Source of the DNA: Anaerolineae bacterium
GTDB lineage: Bacteria; Chloroflexota; Anaerolineae; Aggregatilineales; Phototrophicaceae
Assembly: GCA_025454525.1 (NCBI GenBank)
Contig: JALOOG010000004.1
Location: 1-64,000, forward strand
Reading direction: 5' to 3'
Length of the DNA: 64,000 bases
Shown here: positions 33,373-41,813 of the stretch, in pieces
Layout of the letters: every line of letters begins with the position of its first letter
How positions within the stretch are numbered: the stretch's first letter is position 1
Program-made: the position numbers and the translations under genes
Notes under the pieces: generated by a model
Seen by the model: only the letters and a program-made list of their open reading frames with translations
Databases searched by the model: none
Told to the model about the DNA's origin: nothing

Positions 33373-34755
33373 TCATGTTTCAGGGTGTGCGACAAATTTA
33401 TAGCCTTTACCGCGGATATTTTTGATCGCTTCATCCGGTCTTAAAGTTTTGCGAATGCGATGTACCGCGGCCTCTAAAGCGCGTTTCGATTTATCATTAT
33501 CTTCCCACACCGCATCTAATAATTCCTCAAACGTGCAGACGCGACCTTCATGTTGTTGAAAGTAGCGTAACAATGCGCCGTCAATTGGTGTGAGATTTTC
33601 GCTAGAGACCGCTATTACGGCTATATGAGATGCGGATTGTTGTTGGTCTTGACGTTCGATAAACAGGGTGAACAGCGCGCTGAAAATACCATATACTCCG
33701 TGTTTAAGATCCCATTGGATCAGCGCTTTGCTGACCAATCGCGCCGCGATCACACTCTGTTCGCGATTAAGTTCTTTCGGGCTTTCTCTGGCAATTTCCA
33801 TGAGGACGTGTCGTTCCGGATCGCTTAACTTATTCCATTGAAGTTGAAAGATGCGATGCAGATGAGGTTGGCTCATCAGACGAAATAAAAATTGTTCCGA
33901 AAAATGCCCGCGTTCTTTGGCATCATCCAACCAATGCTTGAGATCGGCATAATCGCTAGACATCTCATAGTAATGTTCACAGGCGGTCGTCAAGACAAAC
34001 GGTTGTTTACCCCCCACTTCGATCAAAAACTCGGTTTCAGAGGCGGTATAGGACAAGCTCATCTCTCTCAGCGGTTGATTGATCAGATCCCGCGCCGCTT
34101 GATCGCTCAATAAACCTAACGTTTCGGGACGTAAGATCCCTAAAAACGGGGAACTTTGGCCAAAGTCCGGACGCAATTCAGCGATCGGGGCCTCTGTAGC
34201 AATAATGATCACCGCATGATCACTAATCACCCGCAATAAACCGTCATCATGGTTATCCAGTTGATCGAGCGGCGTATCAAAATCATCCATGAGAAACACC
34301 ACTCGGATCGCTTGATTATCCAATTGCTGTAACACTCGTTTGAGTTGATTCACCAGTTCTTGACGTGGCGTTGTGACTTCATACTGCCCAAAGCGTGGGG
34401 AGGTGTGTTGCGCTAGATCCGCAAATTCATGATGTAAATGATCCAGCAGCAAGTAAAACAGGTTGTCATCTTCCCCGAAGGTATGGAAATTCAGGTAGAT
34501 AAACAACAATTGCCGTGTTCCACCCGGACGATACTCCGCGTTGATATACTGCTCATAGCGTTTGAGCGCGCCATTTTTATCTTTGAGGAACTTCAAGAGC
34601 GTCGTTTTACCGATCGTGCGAATCCCGTGGATCGCGTGACCACTGGTATACGGCGCGGTGAGGACTTGTAAGATCCCGATCAATTCACGTTCACGTCCGT
34701 AAAAATGTTTAGGGTGATACGTCAACAACATCGGGGTATAGGGATTAGGGATCAT
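33373..34755 (-). CDS. STAND/AAA NTPase with C-terminal OmpR-type winged helix
   Basis: A 460-residue protein. An N-terminal NPYTP segment and FYGREREL lead into a P-loop (IRTIGKTTLL), a Walker B (VVFLMDDFD), a helical region (about 200-360), and a C-terminal winged helix of the OmpR/PhoB effector type (about 385-455, with RALEAAVHRIRKTLRPDE and IRGKGYKFVA). It would be an ATP-dependent, signal-activated transcription regulator or DNA-binding switch. The NPYT/FYGRE start is shared with the NTPase part of the gene just upstream, so the two are related. ATG at 34755 is two bases after that gene's stop, which makes this a two-gene operon. Confidence 0.8.
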   Translation of the reverse strand: MIPNPYTPMLLTYHPKHFYGRERELIGILQVLTAPYTSGHAIHGIRTIGKTTLLKFLKDKNGALKRYEQYINAEYRPGGTRQLLFIYLNFHTFGEDDNLFYLLLDHLHHEFADLAQHTSPRFGQYEVTTPRQELVNQLKRVLQQLDNQAIRVVFLMDDFDTPLDQLDNHDDGLLRVISDHAVIIIATEAPIAELRPDFGQSSPFLGILRPETLGLLSDQAARDLINQPLREMSLSYTASETEFLIEVGGKQPFVLTTACEHYYEMSSDYADLKHWLDDAKERGHFSEQFLFRLMSQPHLHRIFQLQWNKLSDPERHVLMEIARESPKELNREQSVIAARLVSKALIQWDLKHGVYGIFSALFTLFIERQDQQQSASHIAVIAVSSENLTPIDGALLRYFQQHEGRVCTFEELLDAVWEDNDKSKRALEAAVHRIRKTLRPDEAIKNIRGKGYKFVAHPET

Positions 34756-34757
34756 GA

Positions 34758-37700
34758 TTAGTTTTCTCGCTGTAGATCTTGACTGATCGAAACATGGGTA
34801 ACGACTCGGCGCAACCATTGATGAAACAACCCGATCGGGATGCGATACAAGGCTTTTTGCTGATGCTCACTCGCTTCAATCAGTCCAGTTTGCTTCAGAT
34901 CACCGAGACTTTTTGGCAAACTCCATCCTTCCAGCTGATACCCGTAGCGTTTGAGCGCATCGCGGATCTGATCACTGGTCACACCATCACGTTTTTCTTC
35001 GGTGATATACGCGATCACTTTCAAAATGTCCCAATCAAACTCCGAGACTCGATGACGATAATGGCTGAAATAATGTTCCCCCGCGATCAACAGGTTCTGT
35101 ATCACTTGATCTAAATCGGACATCGTGACGCTGGTCTGTTCGGTGAAAGTCAGATGTGTGATCAATTTTTCACAGATCGCTTGAATGAAATAGGGATGAC
35201 AATGCGTGAGATCCAAAATCTGATCGATCACTTCCGACGGGATCTTATAAAACCGTTCGGAAGGTTGTTGGATCAAGCGCATCGCCGCGACTCGATCAAG
35301 CGCATCTAATCGAATCGGAATCCCGCGTTGTAATAGCCCTTTGCTACGGGTATCTTCTCGCAAGATGATATGATCATGCACACATAAGATAAATTCGAGG
35401 TGGGCTTGGCTCACCAACCATTGCATCCCGTCGAAAAAATGGGATTCCAACGCGCCTTTTTTAAATTCTTCTTCCGCACGGGTGAACTCATCGATCAGAA
35501 ACAGTAATCGTGTGCCTTGTAAGGCGCGTTCCACCCGTTTTGCCCATTGATGAAACGCGATAAACGGATTTTCTTGTAAGTCTTGTTTCTGTAAGCGCAA
35601 GTTGCGCCGATCTTCCAATTTCCACAAGCGCCCCTGAAACTTGTCATAAGCGGTTTCGGCCAGTTGTAGTAAAAACGTGCGCGTCTCAAATGGCGATAAA
35701 CTCTGCACATCAAACAAGATCGGTAACACCCCGCCGATCTGCGGCAAAAACTGCTCCGCCAATTGGTATAACAATGACGTTTTGCCGATCCGCTTTTGCC
35801 CATACAACACGATCATCTCATGTTGTGCGATCTTTTCCATGATTGTGCGAATTTCGCTTTCACGTCCATAAAATACCGCTTGATTCCCGACTTGTTTGAG
35901 CGTGTACGGGTTTTGTTGGCGTTTATCTAAACGTGCGGCGATCAACATCTTATGGCCGGGGAACAATTGCCAGATCTTAAAATCCGTGAGATACCCACCG
36001 CGTTCGATCACCCGCAACGCACTTTGTAGCAAGTGCAGGCTTTCTTGGGAAGGCGCATCCACCGTAAATTGAATGGTGTATTTGTTGTCTTTTAACTCGC
36101 TGTGAAAGTGATGCAAATTCAACCGCAGCTGTTCATCGTCTTTACCGACGCTAGACACCGCGTTTAAGATCATACTGACCACAAAGCTAAATGCGGGCGC
36201 GGAGATCAACACTTCAATCGCTTCACGGGAATTTTCAGCCGATCGCCATTTTAACAGCACGGCTTGATCGATCGTCGGTGCGTGACGGCTGTCTTTACGA
36301 TAGACCACCAAAACGCGCTCTTTATCCCGTCCGATATACTTCCCGACAATTTCGACTCCCGGCAAAACCCGCGTTTTGCGGTCAAATTTTTCAGGTTCTT
36401 TCTCTTGTAGCCATGTCCGGGCGATGCGAATCGGGGTATTGACTTCATCCCCATTGGCCAAAATGATATGACCGATCAACTCATATTCGATCATCGATGC
36501 GACCACTTCATCCGGTGAGATCGCGCCGTCGGTGACTTTAAGATACAACGTATCTACATGACCAAGCTCATGATCATGAGCGACGCGATTCAAAATATGA
36601 TCGATCTTTTCCACGGGAAACCGCATTTGATAGATGCTATTTTCGCGTTCTAGCACCTTTTCGATCAATCTACGCCCTTTGTGTGGACGGCGATCTTGTT
36701 GTTTCAAGAACCGTTTGATCGCATTTTTAGTAGCAGGCAGCCGCGCACAGTCTGACCATTCCGGCGTTAAACAAGGGTAGTGTGTATCAAATTCCACTTC
36801 CACCAGATCGCGATGATGCACTTCTTCATCAAAACGTTTTTGTCGGCCGTTGACGGAAAAGCTTTTAGCATACGCCCCCAAGACCGAATGAATCCGAAAC
36901 GCCACATCCACCAAGGTACTACCCACCGGAAGGGGATAGATCACACCACCATTCGGCGTAATCACACCGATCTCCGATGAAGTCCGGATCACATCGGTAT
37001 TTCCGGGACGCATCACCTCACGGATCGTCTGATTTTGCCACCACACATTTTTAATTTCGATCGGGTTCAATAGCGCCGCCGTCACCCCGTAGCGATTGAT
37101 GCTCTCCATTTCGTGGCTACGAATCCGAAATTCGACCAACTTTTGATCGATCATCACCGTGGTGATCAAACACCGATACCCGTTGTAACGTGGATCAGCA
37201 ATGTAATCGTAAAAGCGTGCGTCTTTTCCGTGTTCATCATTCGGATAGAGGTAATAACGTAAGGCCGGTTTCCAACAATGATGAATCAAGCCAAGGGTGC
37301 GATAACACTCCTCCTCATGACTCAATAGCACATCGATTCGCAATGTTTCGGTGTTGTTCAGCCCTTGTTTTTTCCCTTTTTCGCTTCGTAAGTACATGCT
37401 CAAGGGGGTACTCTCATGATGCTGGATCTCAACATCCGGCAATAGACTGCTTAAAGTAGCCTTGATCTGTTCATAAAATGGCCATTGTCGCTTACGGATC
37501 GTCTGTTCTTGTTTAGCAAAATGTTGATATTGGATCGGATACAGCGCTTGTAAGCTGATGTTGCCTAATTCGGTGCGATCTTGCCACATGCCCAACATCT
37601 CTAACAGCGGTAGATAAACCTTAAAGTTGCGTTCGGCCCATTCTTCGCGCTGTGAAACGGTCATCAGATCTAATTGAGCGACACTTGCCAAGCGATCCGC

Positions 37701-38075
37701 CACGACGATCAACAACGCTTCAACATCCGCATAAGCATACACAAACAACCGGCGTTTGATGTCCGCGTAAAAGCTTTGAATGCTTAAGCGGCGAGTCGAG
37801 TCGGTAGGATTATCAAAAGCGATTAACTTGGTTGCGATCCGTGCCGTTTGAACTGATCGTAATCCAAACAACACCAACAATTCTTGTTCATTCACCCATT
37901 CAGCTTTCAAAATCGGGATCAACCATGCCGCGATCAATGTCGGAGTACGGACTTCCCAAAAATCCAACCATGCGACGGTTGCTTCCACTTGTGCGATCAA
38001 GCCTTCATCCTGAATGTGTTGTTGGAAAAATTGTTGTGCTTGCAGAACCAGATCAACAGGCATGATGTCACTCAT
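34758..38075 (-). CDS. long RelA/SpoT-like protein (degenerate HD and synthetase, TGS, ACT-like) fused to STAND/AAA NTPase
   Basis: A 1105-residue fusion. Residues 20-180 align with the Rel hydrolase domain (DVEALLIVVADRLASV; LPLLEMLGMWQDRTELGN), but the HD/ED motif is replaced by TLIAAWLIPILK (46-57). Residues 200-335 align with the (p)ppGpp synthetase (EEECYRTLGLIHHCWKP; YDYIADPRYNGYRCL; EFRIRSHEM), yet the G-R-x-K motif and the aspartate before the LR motif look lost. TGS follows (363-430, VITPNGG to HRDLVEVEF), then an ACT-like region (575-715), then an NTPase with FYGRESEI, Walker A GQKRIGKTS (759-767), Walker B LLFLIDEF (857-864) and a C-terminal winged-helix-like part. Both alarmone activities are probably dead, suggesting a sensor. 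I know no standard family with this architecture. Confidence 0.85.
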   Translation of the reverse strand: MSDIMPVDLVLQAQQFFQQHIQDEGLIAQVEATVAWLDFWEVRTPTLIAAWLIPILKAEWVNEQELLVLFGLRSVQTARIATKLIAFDNPTDSTRRLSIQSFYADIKRRLFVYAYADVEALLIVVADRLASVAQLDLMTVSQREEWAERNFKVYLPLLEMLGMWQDRTELGNISLQALYPIQYQHFAKQEQTIRKRQWPFYEQIKATLSSLLPDVEIQHHESTPLSMYLRSEKGKKQGLNNTETLRIDVLLSHEEECYRTLGLIHHCWKPALRYYLYPNDEHGKDARFYDYIADPRYNGYRCLITTVMIDQKLVEFRIRSHEMESINRYGVTAALLNPIEIKNVWWQNQTIREVMRPGNTDVIRTSSEIGVITPNGGVIYPLPVGSTLVDVAFRIHSVLGAYAKSFSVNGRQKRFDEEVHHRDLVEVEFDTHYPCLTPEWSDCARLPATKNAIKRFLKQQDRRPHKGRRLIEKVLERENSIYQMRFPVEKIDHILNRVAHDHELGHVDTLYLKVTDGAISPDEVVASMIEYELIGHIILANGDEVNTPIRIARTWLQEKEPEKFDRKTRVLPGVEIVGKYIGRDKERVLVVYRKDSRHAPTIDQAVLLKWRSAENSREAIEVLISAPAFSFVVSMILNAVSSVGKDDEQLRLNLHHFHSELKDNKYTIQFTVDAPSQESLHLLQSALRVIERGGYLTDFKIWQLFPGHKMLIAARLDKRQQNPYTLKQVGNQAVFYGRESEIRTIMEKIAQHEMIVLYGQKRIGKTSLLYQLAEQFLPQIGGVLPILFDVQSLSPFETRTFLLQLAETAYDKFQGRLWKLEDRRNLRLQKQDLQENPFIAFHQWAKRVERALQGTRLLFLIDEFTRAEEEFKKGALESHFFDGMQWLVSQAHLEFILCVHDHIILREDTRSKGLLQRGIPIRLDALDRVAAMRLIQQPSERFYKIPSEVIDQILDLTHCHPYFIQAICEKLITHLTFTEQTSVTMSDLDQVIQNLLIAGEHYFSHYRHRVSEFDWDILKVIAYITEEKRDGVTSDQIRDALKRYGYQLEGWSLPKSLGDLKQTGLIEASEHQQKALYRIPIGLFHQWLRRVVTHVSISQDLQREN

Positions 38076-38311
38076 ATGATTTACACATTTTTCACATTCT
38101 ACACAAAATACGTAACTGCCGCAATAAACCTTAAGCCATGCTCAATCGGCTTTTTGTACGAGTTTTGTTAAGGTTGTTTACAATGTAACAACATTTTTAT
38201 AGGTTTTTAATGAGTTTTATACACCTGCATCTTGTGTTTCTTGGTAGTTTTGCGTATATTGGATTAAGTTACACAATTTACGCAAAGATACACAAGATAA
38301 AGGGCCATAGC
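38076..38311. promoter_or_regulatory. divergent control region with nested inverted repeats
   Basis: Lies between the Rel-NTPase operon and the MoxR trio. An inner dyad TTTGCGTA (38249-38256)/TACGCAAA (38279-38286) sits within an outer dyad CTTGTGT (38231-38237)/ACACAAG (38290-38296). A further imperfect dyad GTTGTTTAC-AAT-GTAACAAC spans 38173-38192. TACACA/TTACACA words recur at both ends. Such layered symmetry close to both starts fits operators for one or more dimeric regulators, possibly the winged-helix NTPase. Promoter hexamers are not clear in the AT-rich background. Confidence 0.55.
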
Positions 38312-39751
38312 ATGATCGACCAAGAACTCACTTTGAACATCACCGAGAGGCTGGGCGTACAAGGCTGGTCACGTTTAGATGCCGTTCTGCTTGCAGCGTT
38401 AGCCACCGAATATCCGCTTTTGTTGATCGGCCCACACGGCACGGCAAAATCGTTCCTCGTTGAACGGATCGCCCATGCCTTGGGATTAGAAATGCGTCAT
38501 TATAACGCCGCTTTATTGAACTATGACGATCTGGTCGGTATCCCGTTACCGGATGAAGCAGGGGAATCATTGCACTTTGTCCCCACCCCTAGCACGATCT
38601 GGCAAGCCGGGTTTGTGTTCTTTGATGAAATTTCGCGTTGCCGTATTGATCTACAAAACAAATTATTCCCTATTATTCATGAACGCCGTGTCGTCGGGAT
38701 CAAACTGGATCAATTGCGCTATCGGTGGGCAGCGATGAATCCACCCGCGCCGGATGATCCGTCGGTCAATTCCACCACCACCTACTATTTAGGATCAGAG
38801 CCGCTTGATCCGGCCTTAACCGATCGTTTTCCATTTGTGATCACCGTTCCCAATTGGGGTGATCTTAGCCGTCAAGACCGTTTACGAATCGTGTTGGGGG
38901 ATAGTGAAGTCGATTTAGAAGCTTCATCCAATTTGGATTTAGATCATCAGATCCGCCGATGTGTGGATCTAATCCCGATTGTCCGATCTGATTTTGAAGC
39001 ATGGTTAGGCGATTACATCCTCTATCTAATGGATCTCTTAGAGCGGGGTGGGTTAGGACAAAGCCCTCGTCGGGCGCGCATGTTAGCCCAAACGATCATC
39101 GCGGTTCATGCGGCCCGCCTGTTGTTAGAAGGTGAAGCGGCAGATATTGAGGACAGTGTGATCACCGCGCTGTTATATGGATTACCACAAACTGCGACCG
39201 ATGTCCCACCCAGTGAGATCAAAGTGATCGCCATTCACAAGCAAGCATGGGAATTAGCGCAATATCTCGAAGATGAAAAATGGCGCACAGTAATGGAAGA
39301 ACACGACCGTGCGCGTCGAGTGTTATTGGCACATCAACTCGGTTTTGATGACTTTGAGATGTCTCGTTTGATCACACAAACGTTAGGCGCAGAAGACTCG
39401 AATCCGCGTCAAGTGGGCTTAGCGGTCGCCATGTTTCTCACTTTTTGCGGTCAACGCAATCTTGATCCCTCCGCTTATGAACCGTTGACTCAATTGGCCT
39501 ATCACGTTTTTGAGCCGCGTGTGAGTGTGATCAACGGGATTTTTCCTAACACCCCTGATGCGGCAAATTGGGATGACATCAAAACGTGGATCGAGTCGAA
39601 TCGACGCGACTCGCTGATCTTTCGCCTTGAACGCAATTTCCTGTTATATGGATTTCCGCATTTTTGGCGCACCACCCATTGGAAAGAAGCGTTAGAACAA
39701 TTTCATCACGATTTACTGTTATTTGGCATTGGCGAGGAGCGCCTATCATGA
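38312..39751 (+). CDS. MoxR-like AAA+ ATPase
   Basis: A 479-residue ATPase. Walker A is IGPHGTAKSFLVER, Walker B region is FVFFDEISRCRIDLQNKLF, and AAMNPPAPDD and LDPALTDRFPF follow as sensor and arginine-finger elements, as in MoxR/RavA-type proteins. The C-terminal third is helical. The GTAKS P-loop and AMNP motif set it apart from the canonical MoxR at 30552. ATG at 38312 follows AAGGG; an in-frame upstream ATG would lie inside the operator region. It overlaps the next gene (ATGA), starting a three-gene operon. Confidence 0.82.
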   Translation: MIDQELTLNITERLGVQGWSRLDAVLLAALATEYPLLLIGPHGTAKSFLVERIAHALGLEMRHYNAALLNYDDLVGIPLPDEAGESLHFVPTPSTIWQAGFVFFDEISRCRIDLQNKLFPIIHERRVVGIKLDQLRYRWAAMNPPAPDDPSVNSTTTYYLGSEPLDPALTDRFPFVITVPNWGDLSRQDRLRIVLGDSEVDLEASSNLDLDHQIRRCVDLIPIVRSDFEAWLGDYILYLMDLLERGGLGQSPRRARMLAQTIIAVHAARLLLEGEAADIEDSVITALLYGLPQTATDVPPSEIKVIAIHKQAWELAQYLEDEKWRTVMEEHDRARRVLLAHQLGFDDFEMSRLITQTLGAEDSNPRQVGLAVAMFLTFCGQRNLDPSAYEPLTQLAYHVFEPRVSVINGIFPNTPDAANWDDIKTWIESNRRDSLIFRLERNFLLYGFPHFWRTTHWKEALEQFHHDLLLFGIGEERLS

Positions 39752-40440
39752 CCCAGAATCAGAATCCGAACCTGTCGAATAATCCGAACCCGTTCTCTCG
39801 CAACAATCAGGGAAATCAACCGGCCTCACCGCCTAATCCGCTTTCGCGTGCATCTAACCACAACACACCGAACACACCGCCCGCCCCGCGCCCATCACCT
39901 TTCGGCGCGCAAAATCAACGCAGTTGGACGATCCAACCTGCCTCAAAAACAGTCGTGCGGTTTGATCTGCGCGGGCTTGGTGATCCGTTCTATCGTTTGT
40001 TAGGTCACAATCCTAATCCTGACTATGGCGATAGTAAGTTTGTGGCCGAAGTCTTAGAGCGCGGCGGCGATCAGGTGGCCTTGTTACAAGCGCAACTCGA
40101 TCAAGCATGGAGTAAATACAACTTACAAGGCGCGGTCTTAATCTACAATTGGAACGCCGATACTTGGAAAACGATCACCATACCACCAGCGCCGCCCGCT
40201 CATGAGGAACACGGAGATGAAGAAATCGCTAAGCCCACGCCGATCAGCCCATTTAGTTGTATTCGTGCGATCGATCTAAATGTGGTGCTAAACGTGTTAG
40301 CGCGCTCTCGTTCACAGGTGTTGATGACCCGCGCCCCGTTGATCTTATCGCAACTCTACTTAAACCGTTCGATCATGACCGATGATCCCCGCCTAGTTAA
40401 CCTTGCGCGTGCGACAGGTTATCTTGAGGAGGTCTCATGA
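39748..40440 (+). CDS. proline/asparagine-rich protein of MoxR trio, unknown
   Basis: A 230-residue protein. Residues 1-60 are Asn/Pro/Gln-rich and disordered; the rest (about 65-230) looks folded, with FDLRGLGDPFYRLLG, a long amphipathic helix, and LNVVLNVLARSRSQVL near the end. I recognise no family. GAGGAG precedes the ATG, which overlaps the upstream stop, and its own stop overlaps the next start. By position it could be an adaptor between the ATPase and the metallopeptidase-vWA protein. Confidence 0.65.
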   Translation: MTQNQNPNLSNNPNPFSRNNQGNQPASPPNPLSRASNHNTPNTPPAPRPSPFGAQNQRSWTIQPASKTVVRFDLRGLGDPFYRLLGHNPNPDYGDSKFVAEVLERGGDQVALLQAQLDQAWSKYNLQGAVLIYNWNADTWKTITIPPAPPAHEEHGDEEIAKPTPISPFSCIRAIDLNVVLNVLARSRSQVLMTRAPLILSQLYLNRSIMTDDPRLVNLARATGYLEEVS

Positions 40441-41813
40441 GCATCCGTAGAACCACGCGCTCCGAAGACGCGATGATCTTAAAACGTTTGCGGGGGTGTC
40501 TCCCCGCATCACGTTTTGAAATGGATACTTTGACCCGTCTCGCGGGGGTAGAGACCACCTACACCGTACCTACTGCGGCGGTGGAGTGCAAACGCCGCCC
40601 GCGCTTGTTGATCAACCCGGAGTTTGTCAACCGATACTGTCAGCGCGATGAACATCTATTTTTGTTGATCATGCACGAACTATGGCATGTGATGTTAGCG
40701 CATACCCGCATGTATCCACGCATGACCTTAGCGCAAAACATCGCTTTTGATGCGATCATCAATTCGGGCTTGATGCGCGAATTTGAGGGCCCCGAATATC
40801 GCGGCTTTTTTGATGTGATCAATCCCGCTGACACCTTTCCCAGTTGTTTATTACGTCCGCCTGTCGGTTGGCCATATGATCCCCAATATCCGGAAGGAAT
40901 CGGCCCCGTTGGCACGACCGAGATGATCAAGCGACTCTATCCGATCGGTAATTTCAGTTTCGATTTACCGCCCTTGTATGAAGAAGTATTAGCGCTGTTG
41001 CTCAAAGCAGGGGGCAAGATCGTTGAGCCGATGTTGTTAGGCAATCATCACCCAGAACAAGTTCACGATCCGATCCTCAAAGACTTGATGAAACAAGTGA
41101 CAGAGCGATGGCCGGATAATGTGTTGTTTAAACAGAATCAAGGCACATGGTCAACACATCGGAATTACGGGGTGCAGGATGTGGGTGAAAATACTCGTCG
41201 CGTCTTTTCTAAGGTCTTACAGGTGTGCATTTCGCTCCGTCATGGACGTGAACGTAACAAAGAGAAACGTTCTGTTCCTGATTCAGGTGGTGCGGGTGTG
41301 ATCCCTAATCCCCGTGATCGGCTTTCGCCGGCCCGTGCGCGTTTAGGGATGCCGGAGACGCTATGGAATCAACCGAGTACCGTAAAGGCTCGGCTCTCCG
41401 AACCGTCCAATCGGGCGTTCATCTATTTAGATGTGTCTGGTTCAATGTCGCAATTATTATCGTATTTGTTAGGTTTAATGGTGCCGTATGTGGTCAATCA
41501 TCAAGCGTATGTGTTCCAATTTTCAACTTTAGTCACCGATTTACCGTTACCAGAACTGAAACAAGGCCGTATTACCACGACCAACGGCACAGACATCAAT
41601 TGCGTGTTTGAACATCTGTTTACGATCGCGCCCAAAATTCCGCGTGTGTTGATCTTAACCGACGGTGAAGTGGGTGCGATTAAAAACGATTATATCGATC
41701 GCCTTCAGACACAGGCGATCAAGTTATATGTGGTGATGCCAGAATCAGGTGAATTAGATCCAACCGTCGAATCCATTGCTACGTCGGTTATCCGATTACC
41801 CCCTCTTTACTAA
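40437..41813 (+). CDS. HExxH metallopeptidase-like and vWA domain protein (DUF2201 type)
   Basis: A 458-residue protein. The N-terminal half has a zincin-like HELWHVMLAHT motif (HExxH plus a third histidine), as in DUF2201_N proteins. The C-terminal part is a vWA-like domain with the MIDAS-type DVSGSMS and a later TDGEVG. DUF2201 proteins are often encoded beside MoxR ATPases, as here. A basic linker of about 50 residues separates the two domains. Likely role: a protease or metal-dependent effector whose assembly or release is driven by the ATPase; the target is unknown. Confidence 0.78.
   Translation: MSIRRTTRSEDAMILKRLRGCLPASRFEMDTLTRLAGVETTYTVPTAAVECKRRPRLLINPEFVNRYCQRDEHLFLLIMHELWHVMLAHTRMYPRMTLAQNIAFDAIINSGLMREFEGPEYRGFFDVINPADTFPSCLLRPPVGWPYDPQYPEGIGPVGTTEMIKRLYPIGNFSFDLPPLYEEVLALLLKAGGKIVEPMLLGNHHPEQVHDPILKDLMKQVTERWPDNVLFKQNQGTWSTHRNYGVQDVGENTRRVFSKVLQVCISLRHGRERNKEKRSVPDSGGAGVIPNPRDRLSPARARLGMPETLWNQPSTVKARLSEPSNRAFIYLDVSGSMSQLLSYLLGLMVPYVVNHQAYVFQFSTLVTDLPLPELKQGRITTTNGTDINCVFEHLFTIAPKIPRVLILTDGEVGAIKNDYIDRLQTQAIKLYVVMPESGELDPTVESIATSVIRLPPLY

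Follow-up and report, generated by a model that had tools for sequence, protein, structure and literature searches.

Organization of the locus

The window, a stretch of 64,000 nucleotides from an Anaerolineae bacterium (contig JALOOG010000004.1), carries on one strand two adjacent genes preceded by a group of TGTGTA-type repeats, and a second group of repeats lies before the divergent neighbouring genes (Table 1). The first gene is a single open frame in which a Rel-like protein is joined to a P-loop NTPase, as the preliminary description had proposed from the letters of the DNA. Pfam domains follow one another in the order HD_4, RelA_SpoT, TGS and ATPase_2, and all four exceed the respective gathering scores; the Walker A and Walker B motifs are those that had been pointed out and are conserved in the family, and the TGS domain thought to be retained is present. 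The NCBIfam model spoT_relA aligns with residues 36–688 (E 2.7e-55), with a score of 188 bits that is far under the cut-off of 499 bits for a true member, and solved Rel/RelA chains match the protein with E-values down to 4e-33. The protein was modeled by AlphaFold with a pLDDT of 83 and a pTM of 0.49, so that the relative placement of the domains is unsure. The model matches full-length SpoT (7qpr), ribosome-bound RelA (5iqr), the catalytic region of Rel (8acu, TM 0.80, target-normalised) and the AAA+ structures Orc1/Cdc6 and CED-4. Past the ATPase_2 domain, the end of the protein is helical and winged-helix-like.

Significant sequence and fold matches across the HD, synthetase and TGS regions place the protein by descent among the RelA/SpoT homologs (RSH). 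The ACT-like region that had also been read in the sequence gave no significant match in the window protein itself; an ACT domain is significant in 10 of 19 members of the fusion family and TGS is detected in 18 of these 19. STAND NTPases carry hhGRExE and GxP motifs and then a winged helix. In the fusion as in its partner, Walker A and Walker B lie within an AAA+/ATPase_2 fold, as in STAND proteins; the fusion contains VFYGRESEI, and GHP or GSP occurs in most members, with CHP in the window copy. We regard the fusion architecture as firm.

Table 1. Features of the Rel-STAND locus, with positions in the window
Feature	Position	Strand	Basis or remark
Pseudo-Rel/STAND fusion protein, 1105 aa	34758..38075	-	open frame, Pfam and NCBIfam, full-length relatives
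HD_4-like region, residues 15-164, hydrolase motif lost	37584..38033	-	30.9 bits and site table
RelA_SpoT synthetase-like region, residues 239-335, GRxK and D264 lost	37071..37361	-	42.1 bits
TGS domain, residues 369-425	36801..36971	-	22.5 bits, gathering score 22.2
His396 codon (= E. coli RelA H432, contact with tRNA CCA end)	36888..36890	-	alignment; role according to PMC7058999
ATPase_2 / STAND-like NTPase domain, residues 735-964	35184..35873	-	43.9 bits and model
Walker A GQKRIGKTS	35775..35801	-	G, R, G and K invariant across the fusion family
Walker B LLFLIDEF	35484..35507	-	D and E invariant across the fusion family
Partner, STAND-like ATPase with C-terminal OmpR/PhoB-type winged helix, 460 aa	33373..34755	-	conserved adjacency
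Trans_reg_C DNA-binding domain of the partner	33394..33597	-	59 bits
Triple TGTGTA-type direct repeat, 9-bp period, candidate operator	38082..38105	-	just upstream of the pseudo-Rel start
Second TGTGTA cluster	38270..38294	.	just upstream of the divergent MoxR gene

Conservation of catalytic and reading residues

The 27 aligned rows of the fusion family were compared site by site. In the synthetase region, D264 is found in none of them, the GRxK motif is lost (R241 and K243 are both gone in the window copy) and E323 is kept by the window copy alone. The nucleotide pocket residues R241, K243, D264, H312 and E323 are not retained as a set; the position of the guanine-stacking Tyr308 is kept in 24 of the 27 rows, beside a nearly invariant Cys-Tyr pair. 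In the hydrolase region, E81/D82 are lost across the family, and the window copy carries Q, I, P, K, A and S at the six positions of the HD...ED...N motif; a subgroup (G472, G392, G486, G374 and G185) retains the His and Asp of HD together with Asn148. The loss of both catalytic motifs had been anticipated in the preliminary description and stands, with the correction that E323 persists in the window copy.

The residues of the reading half have fared differently. The TGS histidine, whose counterpart H432 in E. coli RelA recognises the tRNA CCA end (PMC7058999), is present in all 27 rows, as are the TGS aspartate and the tryptophan that follows the TGS domain, and the zinc-finger Cys638 is found in 26. 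The window copy lacks all four zinc-finger ligands, having T, T, Y and S instead, and some of them are lost in G034 and two other members, most members keeping them; the zinc finger is intact in G464 and G455, for instance. The claim of a contact with the ribosome is therefore weaker for the window copy. With its catalytic residues gone and its reader residues kept, the fusion is predicted from the alignment to be a Rel pseudoenzyme. Alternatively, the constancy of the TGS histidine may reflect a role in the fold or in contact with a different RNA.

A partner gene with a DNA-binding domain

The probable start of the second gene is an ATG located 2 nt past the stop codon of the pseudo-Rel gene. 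Wherever the contig of a member is long enough, the same gene lies directly 3' of the fusion and in the same orientation, mostly at a distance of a few bases. A Trans_reg_C domain was detected in 15 of 15 aligned partners; no Pfam match to the BTA domain, which adjoins the DNA-binding domain in the definition of SARP/AfsR proteins, was obtained in any of these 15. The model of the partner (pLDDT 88) matches the archaeal ATPase_2 proteins 2qen and 2fna. Partner and fusion share their history (Mantel r 0.95), and correlation coefficients of 0.94–0.97 link the pairwise identities obtained with the Rel part, with the ATPase part and with the partner.

This type of protein is more widespread than the fusion, some match being found in 198 of 396 genomes of the class. 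Among the strongest matches examined, most adjoin a pseudo-Rel gene; those of G458 and G507 do not. The two orphan partners, which lack a pseudo-Rel gene and are preceded by TGTGTA sites, are located at L170 (6120–7532) and L169 (508–1956). At L181, L184 and L185, one and the same gene pair is followed on its 3' side by a more distant STAND-Trans_reg_C protein; the first gene of this pair resembles RecJ in sequence.

Repeated TGTGTA sites upstream of the operon

The triple site preceding the pseudo-Rel gene is the sole match without mismatch in the 5.24-Mb genome that contains the window. Upstream counts of TGTGTA/TACACA are 4 in the window, G034, G455 and G207, 3 in G464, and 2 in G452, G394 and G510, for expected counts below 0.2 each, estimated from the rest of the respective locus. 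TGTGTA is the most enriched hexamer over 16 upstream regions (25 observed against 4.5 expected, Poisson p 2e-11, uncorrected for the roughly 2000 words), and at least two copies are found in 8 of these regions. The commonest arrangement of neighbouring sites is a spacing of 9–10 bp in the same direction, as expected for OmpR-type domains bound in a row. In the genomes of G455 (7.9 Mb) and G452 (4.8 Mb), the double site is found a single time each, at the pseudo-Rel operon. Sites also precede the independently found operon of G316 and the orphan partners of G507 and G458, which have no pseudo-Rel gene upstream, and hence the sites follow the winged-helix gene.

About half of the operons have no such repeats upstream (G541, G246, G580, G307, G495, G261, G292, G383, the G472 group and G218), so that autoregulation through TGTGTA is not universal; operators may have diverged in these subgroups. 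A regulon extending past the operon did not come to light: across the genome, three-mismatch matches occur no more often than with a reversed control, and a genome-wide regulon was rejected on this ground. Two other repeats were encountered. Upstream of position 1694 of L063, the TGTGTA sites of the G510 operon enclose a large inverted repeat (GACTACAAAAGTCTT ... AAGACTTTTGTAGTC), and the motif search brought up tandem TGTGTCCTC/TGTGTTCTC repeats in contigs C10 (about 222–290), C122 and C197 of G000.

Distribution, origin and selection

The same fusion was found at 29 loci in 28 Chloroflexota genomes, one of which has two copies. A full-length relative with 38% identity belongs to a different genus of the same family as the window genome, and full-length relatives in other genomes rule out a sequencing join of two genes. 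A profile search with the partner gene added nine fusion loci to those obtained by the fusion-based searches of the class and the phylum. The fusion is rare, with 2 of 154 genomes in the order of the window; it is present in at least 24 of 396 genomes of the class sample and in at least three outside the class in the phylum sample, these class and phylum counts being lower bounds. A contig scan using a single fusion sequence as query gave no match, and the scan with the family alignment recovered G034 once more, along with a type II secretion-type ATPase that is unrelated.

In a phylogenetic tree, the fusion family lies on one side of a branch that separates it from 43 canonical Rels (SH-aLRT 99). 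This topology fits a single origin of the family, with the long branches as a caution. Elsewhere, the window genome encodes a normal Rel of 737 residues in which every motif is present, and intact Rels are also found in other member genomes, for example G495, G464, G483 and G316. Between near relatives, dN/dS is about 0.08–0.25, whether measured in the ATPase, in the C-terminal half or in the dead N-terminal half; the entire protein is thus under purifying selection, and a pseudogene is rejected. In the copy of G383 (L065, 8215–11472), a single in-frame TAG separates the Rel half from the ATPase half, which may be a sequencing error or a real split.

Gene neighbourhood and related gene pairs

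Next to the operon, the window contains a divergent trio of genes (38313–41813) coding for a MoxR ATPase, a proline-rich protein of unknown function and a DUF2201_N/vWA protein. Among the loci of the fusion family, this MoxR-vWA neighbour is found in the window and G034 only. Of 61 related genomes, 10 have the cluster, in varied contexts and for the most part with no pseudo-Rel operon; eight related genomes have the cluster and lack the operon, which rules it out as a general third part of the system. The second TGTGTA group stands before MoxR in both the window and G034, and relatives that have the MoxR cluster and no operon are devoid of such sites. These two cases suggest that the cluster may have been drawn into the regulation of the operon at these two loci. 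More generally, the neighbours of the fusion vary between genomes and resemble housekeeping genes.

Five other Chloroflexota loci (L085–L089) each contain a gene pair: a long protein whose C-terminal ATPase is of the type seen here is encoded next to a second ATPase gene. The N-terminal part of the long proteins reads in the sequence as TIR-like, repeat-like or membrane-like instead of Rel, and at L085–L087 a TIR/NACHT/HEAT-repeat-like gene adjoins the pair. As in the Rel-STAND operon, the second gene starts with a similar NPF/GR motif. These pairs suggest that the operon may be one case of a wider modular design.

A proposed ribosome-reading switch and its alternatives

We propose, with belief and doubt about evenly balanced, that the two genes form a self-regulated STAND transcription switch of two subunits, its sensor being the dead Rel, which would respond to starved ribosomes or uncharged tRNA. 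The product of the first gene would be a long Rel turned pseudoenzyme that serves as sensor for a STAND-type ATPase. Its TGS, helical and ACT half would recognise the starved ribosome or the uncharged tRNA as Rel does, and this recognition would free the ATPase module into its ATP-bound form, which would then assemble with the ATPase of the second gene. The winged helices brought together in this way would bind along the TGTGTA repeats and alter how the operon is transcribed, both the direct binding to DNA and the direction of the regulation being presumptive; in the window, transcription of the divergent MoxR operon would possibly be changed as well. Part of such a chain has precedents: MalT is a STAND transcription factor that rests with ADP bound and is turned by its inducer into a multimer holding ATP (PMC4381067, PMC6468293), and in AfsR a NOD is coupled to a DNA-binding domain of OmpR type (PMC10936776). 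The pseudo-Rel sensor feeding a STAND switch that the preliminary description had imagined is supported by the conservation of the family, the catalytic loss, the TGS histidine and the purifying selection; it had missed the obligate second gene and the operator, which together likely shift the output from an effector to transcription.

The main rival to ribosome reading keeps the same two-subunit switch and replaces its input by a small molecule in the remnant nucleotide pocket, GTP/GDP or (p)ppGpp, or by an amino acid sensed through ACT. The near-constancy of the Tyr308 position and of the adjacent Cys-Tyr pair in a protein deprived of its catalytic residues would be explained in this way, as would the absence from the window copy of the zinc-finger ligands used in ribosome contact, and alarmone level had already been named as a possible input. 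Yet the five pocket residues did not persist together, and the Rel residues best kept are the TGS histidine, the tryptophan after TGS and, in most members, the zinc-finger cysteine, so that we consider a small-molecule ligand rather unlikely, though worth serious attention. An enzyme of Rel type that is still active, with unusual active-site residues and regulation by the ATPase, would account for the HD His, Asp and Asn148 of the G472 subgroup and for E323 in the window copy; with D264 in no member, E81/D82 lost and the window copy altered at all six hydrolase positions, we find it very improbable.

STAND ATPases are common in immunity, CapRel is a Rel relative that acts as an immune sensor (PMC9712102) and the distribution of the fusion is patchy, its 2 occurrences in 154 genomes of the order being an example. 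The dead Rel could detect the interference of a phage with translation and serve an anti-phage or cell-suicide STAND in the manner of Avs/NLR proteins. We judge this improbable, and no result supports a role in defence: no effector domain was recognised in the fusion or the partner and the output domain is the winged helix of a transcription factor. Moreover, a defence island was rejected in view of the varied, housekeeping-like neighbours and the weakness of the PADLOC matches (22 bits at best, over the P-loop region only), and no full-length copy was found in phage, plasmid and viral collections, the search of viral contigs yielding two matches to the ATPase only. Finally, degenerate motifs, long branches and the stop codon of G383 could be taken as signs of a decaying Rel duplicate fused by accident and devoid of function. 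The frames are nevertheless open in all other complete members despite their deep divergence, dN/dS is well below 1 in every part of the protein and the obligate partner has followed the same history, which leaves this explanation with hardly any probability.

Comparison with known systems

Long Rel proteins are known for synthesising and breaking down ppGpp. The fusion resembles these long RSH (Rel, RelA, SpoT) in the order HD, synthetase, TGS, helical, zinc finger and ACT, in its homology across residues 36–688 and in the TGS histidine used to read the CCA end of tRNA; it differs from them by the loss of both catalytic sites, the added STAND ATPase and the obligate DNA-binding partner. For Chloroflexi, a 2011 survey of RSH reported Rel and small hydrolases only, and the words ATPase and fusion do not appear in its main text (PMC3153485). 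CapRel and toxSAS, which are defined as short catalytic synthetases with an antitoxin part, likewise use the RelA_SpoT fold outside the stringent response. These are short, catalytic proteins that pyrophosphorylate tRNA or synthesise (p)ppApp (PMC11782079, PMC9712102), whereas the fusion is long and lacks the catalytic residues.

With MalT and AfsR/SARP, the operon shares the coupling of a STAND ATPase to transcription. All 15 partners have the OmpR-type DNA-binding domain of AfsR/SARP and none gave a Pfam match to the BTA, and SARPs bind direct repeats (PMC10936776). In contrast to these systems, a dead Rel takes the place of TPRs, sensing and DNA binding are divided between two separate STAND proteins, and the repeats follow each other at 9–10 bp instead of 11 or 22. 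Passages of an eLife 2020 survey of NTP-dependent conflict systems list RelA, TGS and STAND NTPases among the variable parts of such systems in multicellular bacteria, so the recruitment of Rel/TGS domains has a precedent there; a dead long Rel with an obligate STAND-winged-helix partner is absent from these passages (PMC7159879). The VMAP, or MoxR-vWA, ternary systems of that survey resemble the window in its MoxR-vWA cluster beside the operon; their conserved vWA and MoxR neighbours are found here at two family loci only. No description of a Rel-STAND fusion was found in the open literature covered, which included few subscription papers or preprints.

We suggest more tentatively that the ribosome-reading switch is a STAND receptor of the ribosomal A site. 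It would constitute a ppGpp-independent branch of the stringent response, leading from uncharged tRNA to transcription through a heteromeric ATPase switch, within a wider Chloroflexota design of paired STAND proteins with exchangeable sensors. If this is true, reading of the ribosome would be separable from alarmone chemistry and would have been rewired to gene regulation via a STAND switch. STAND biology would gain a sensor that is not made of repeats, together with a candidate ligand and a candidate operator, making the whole chain testable.
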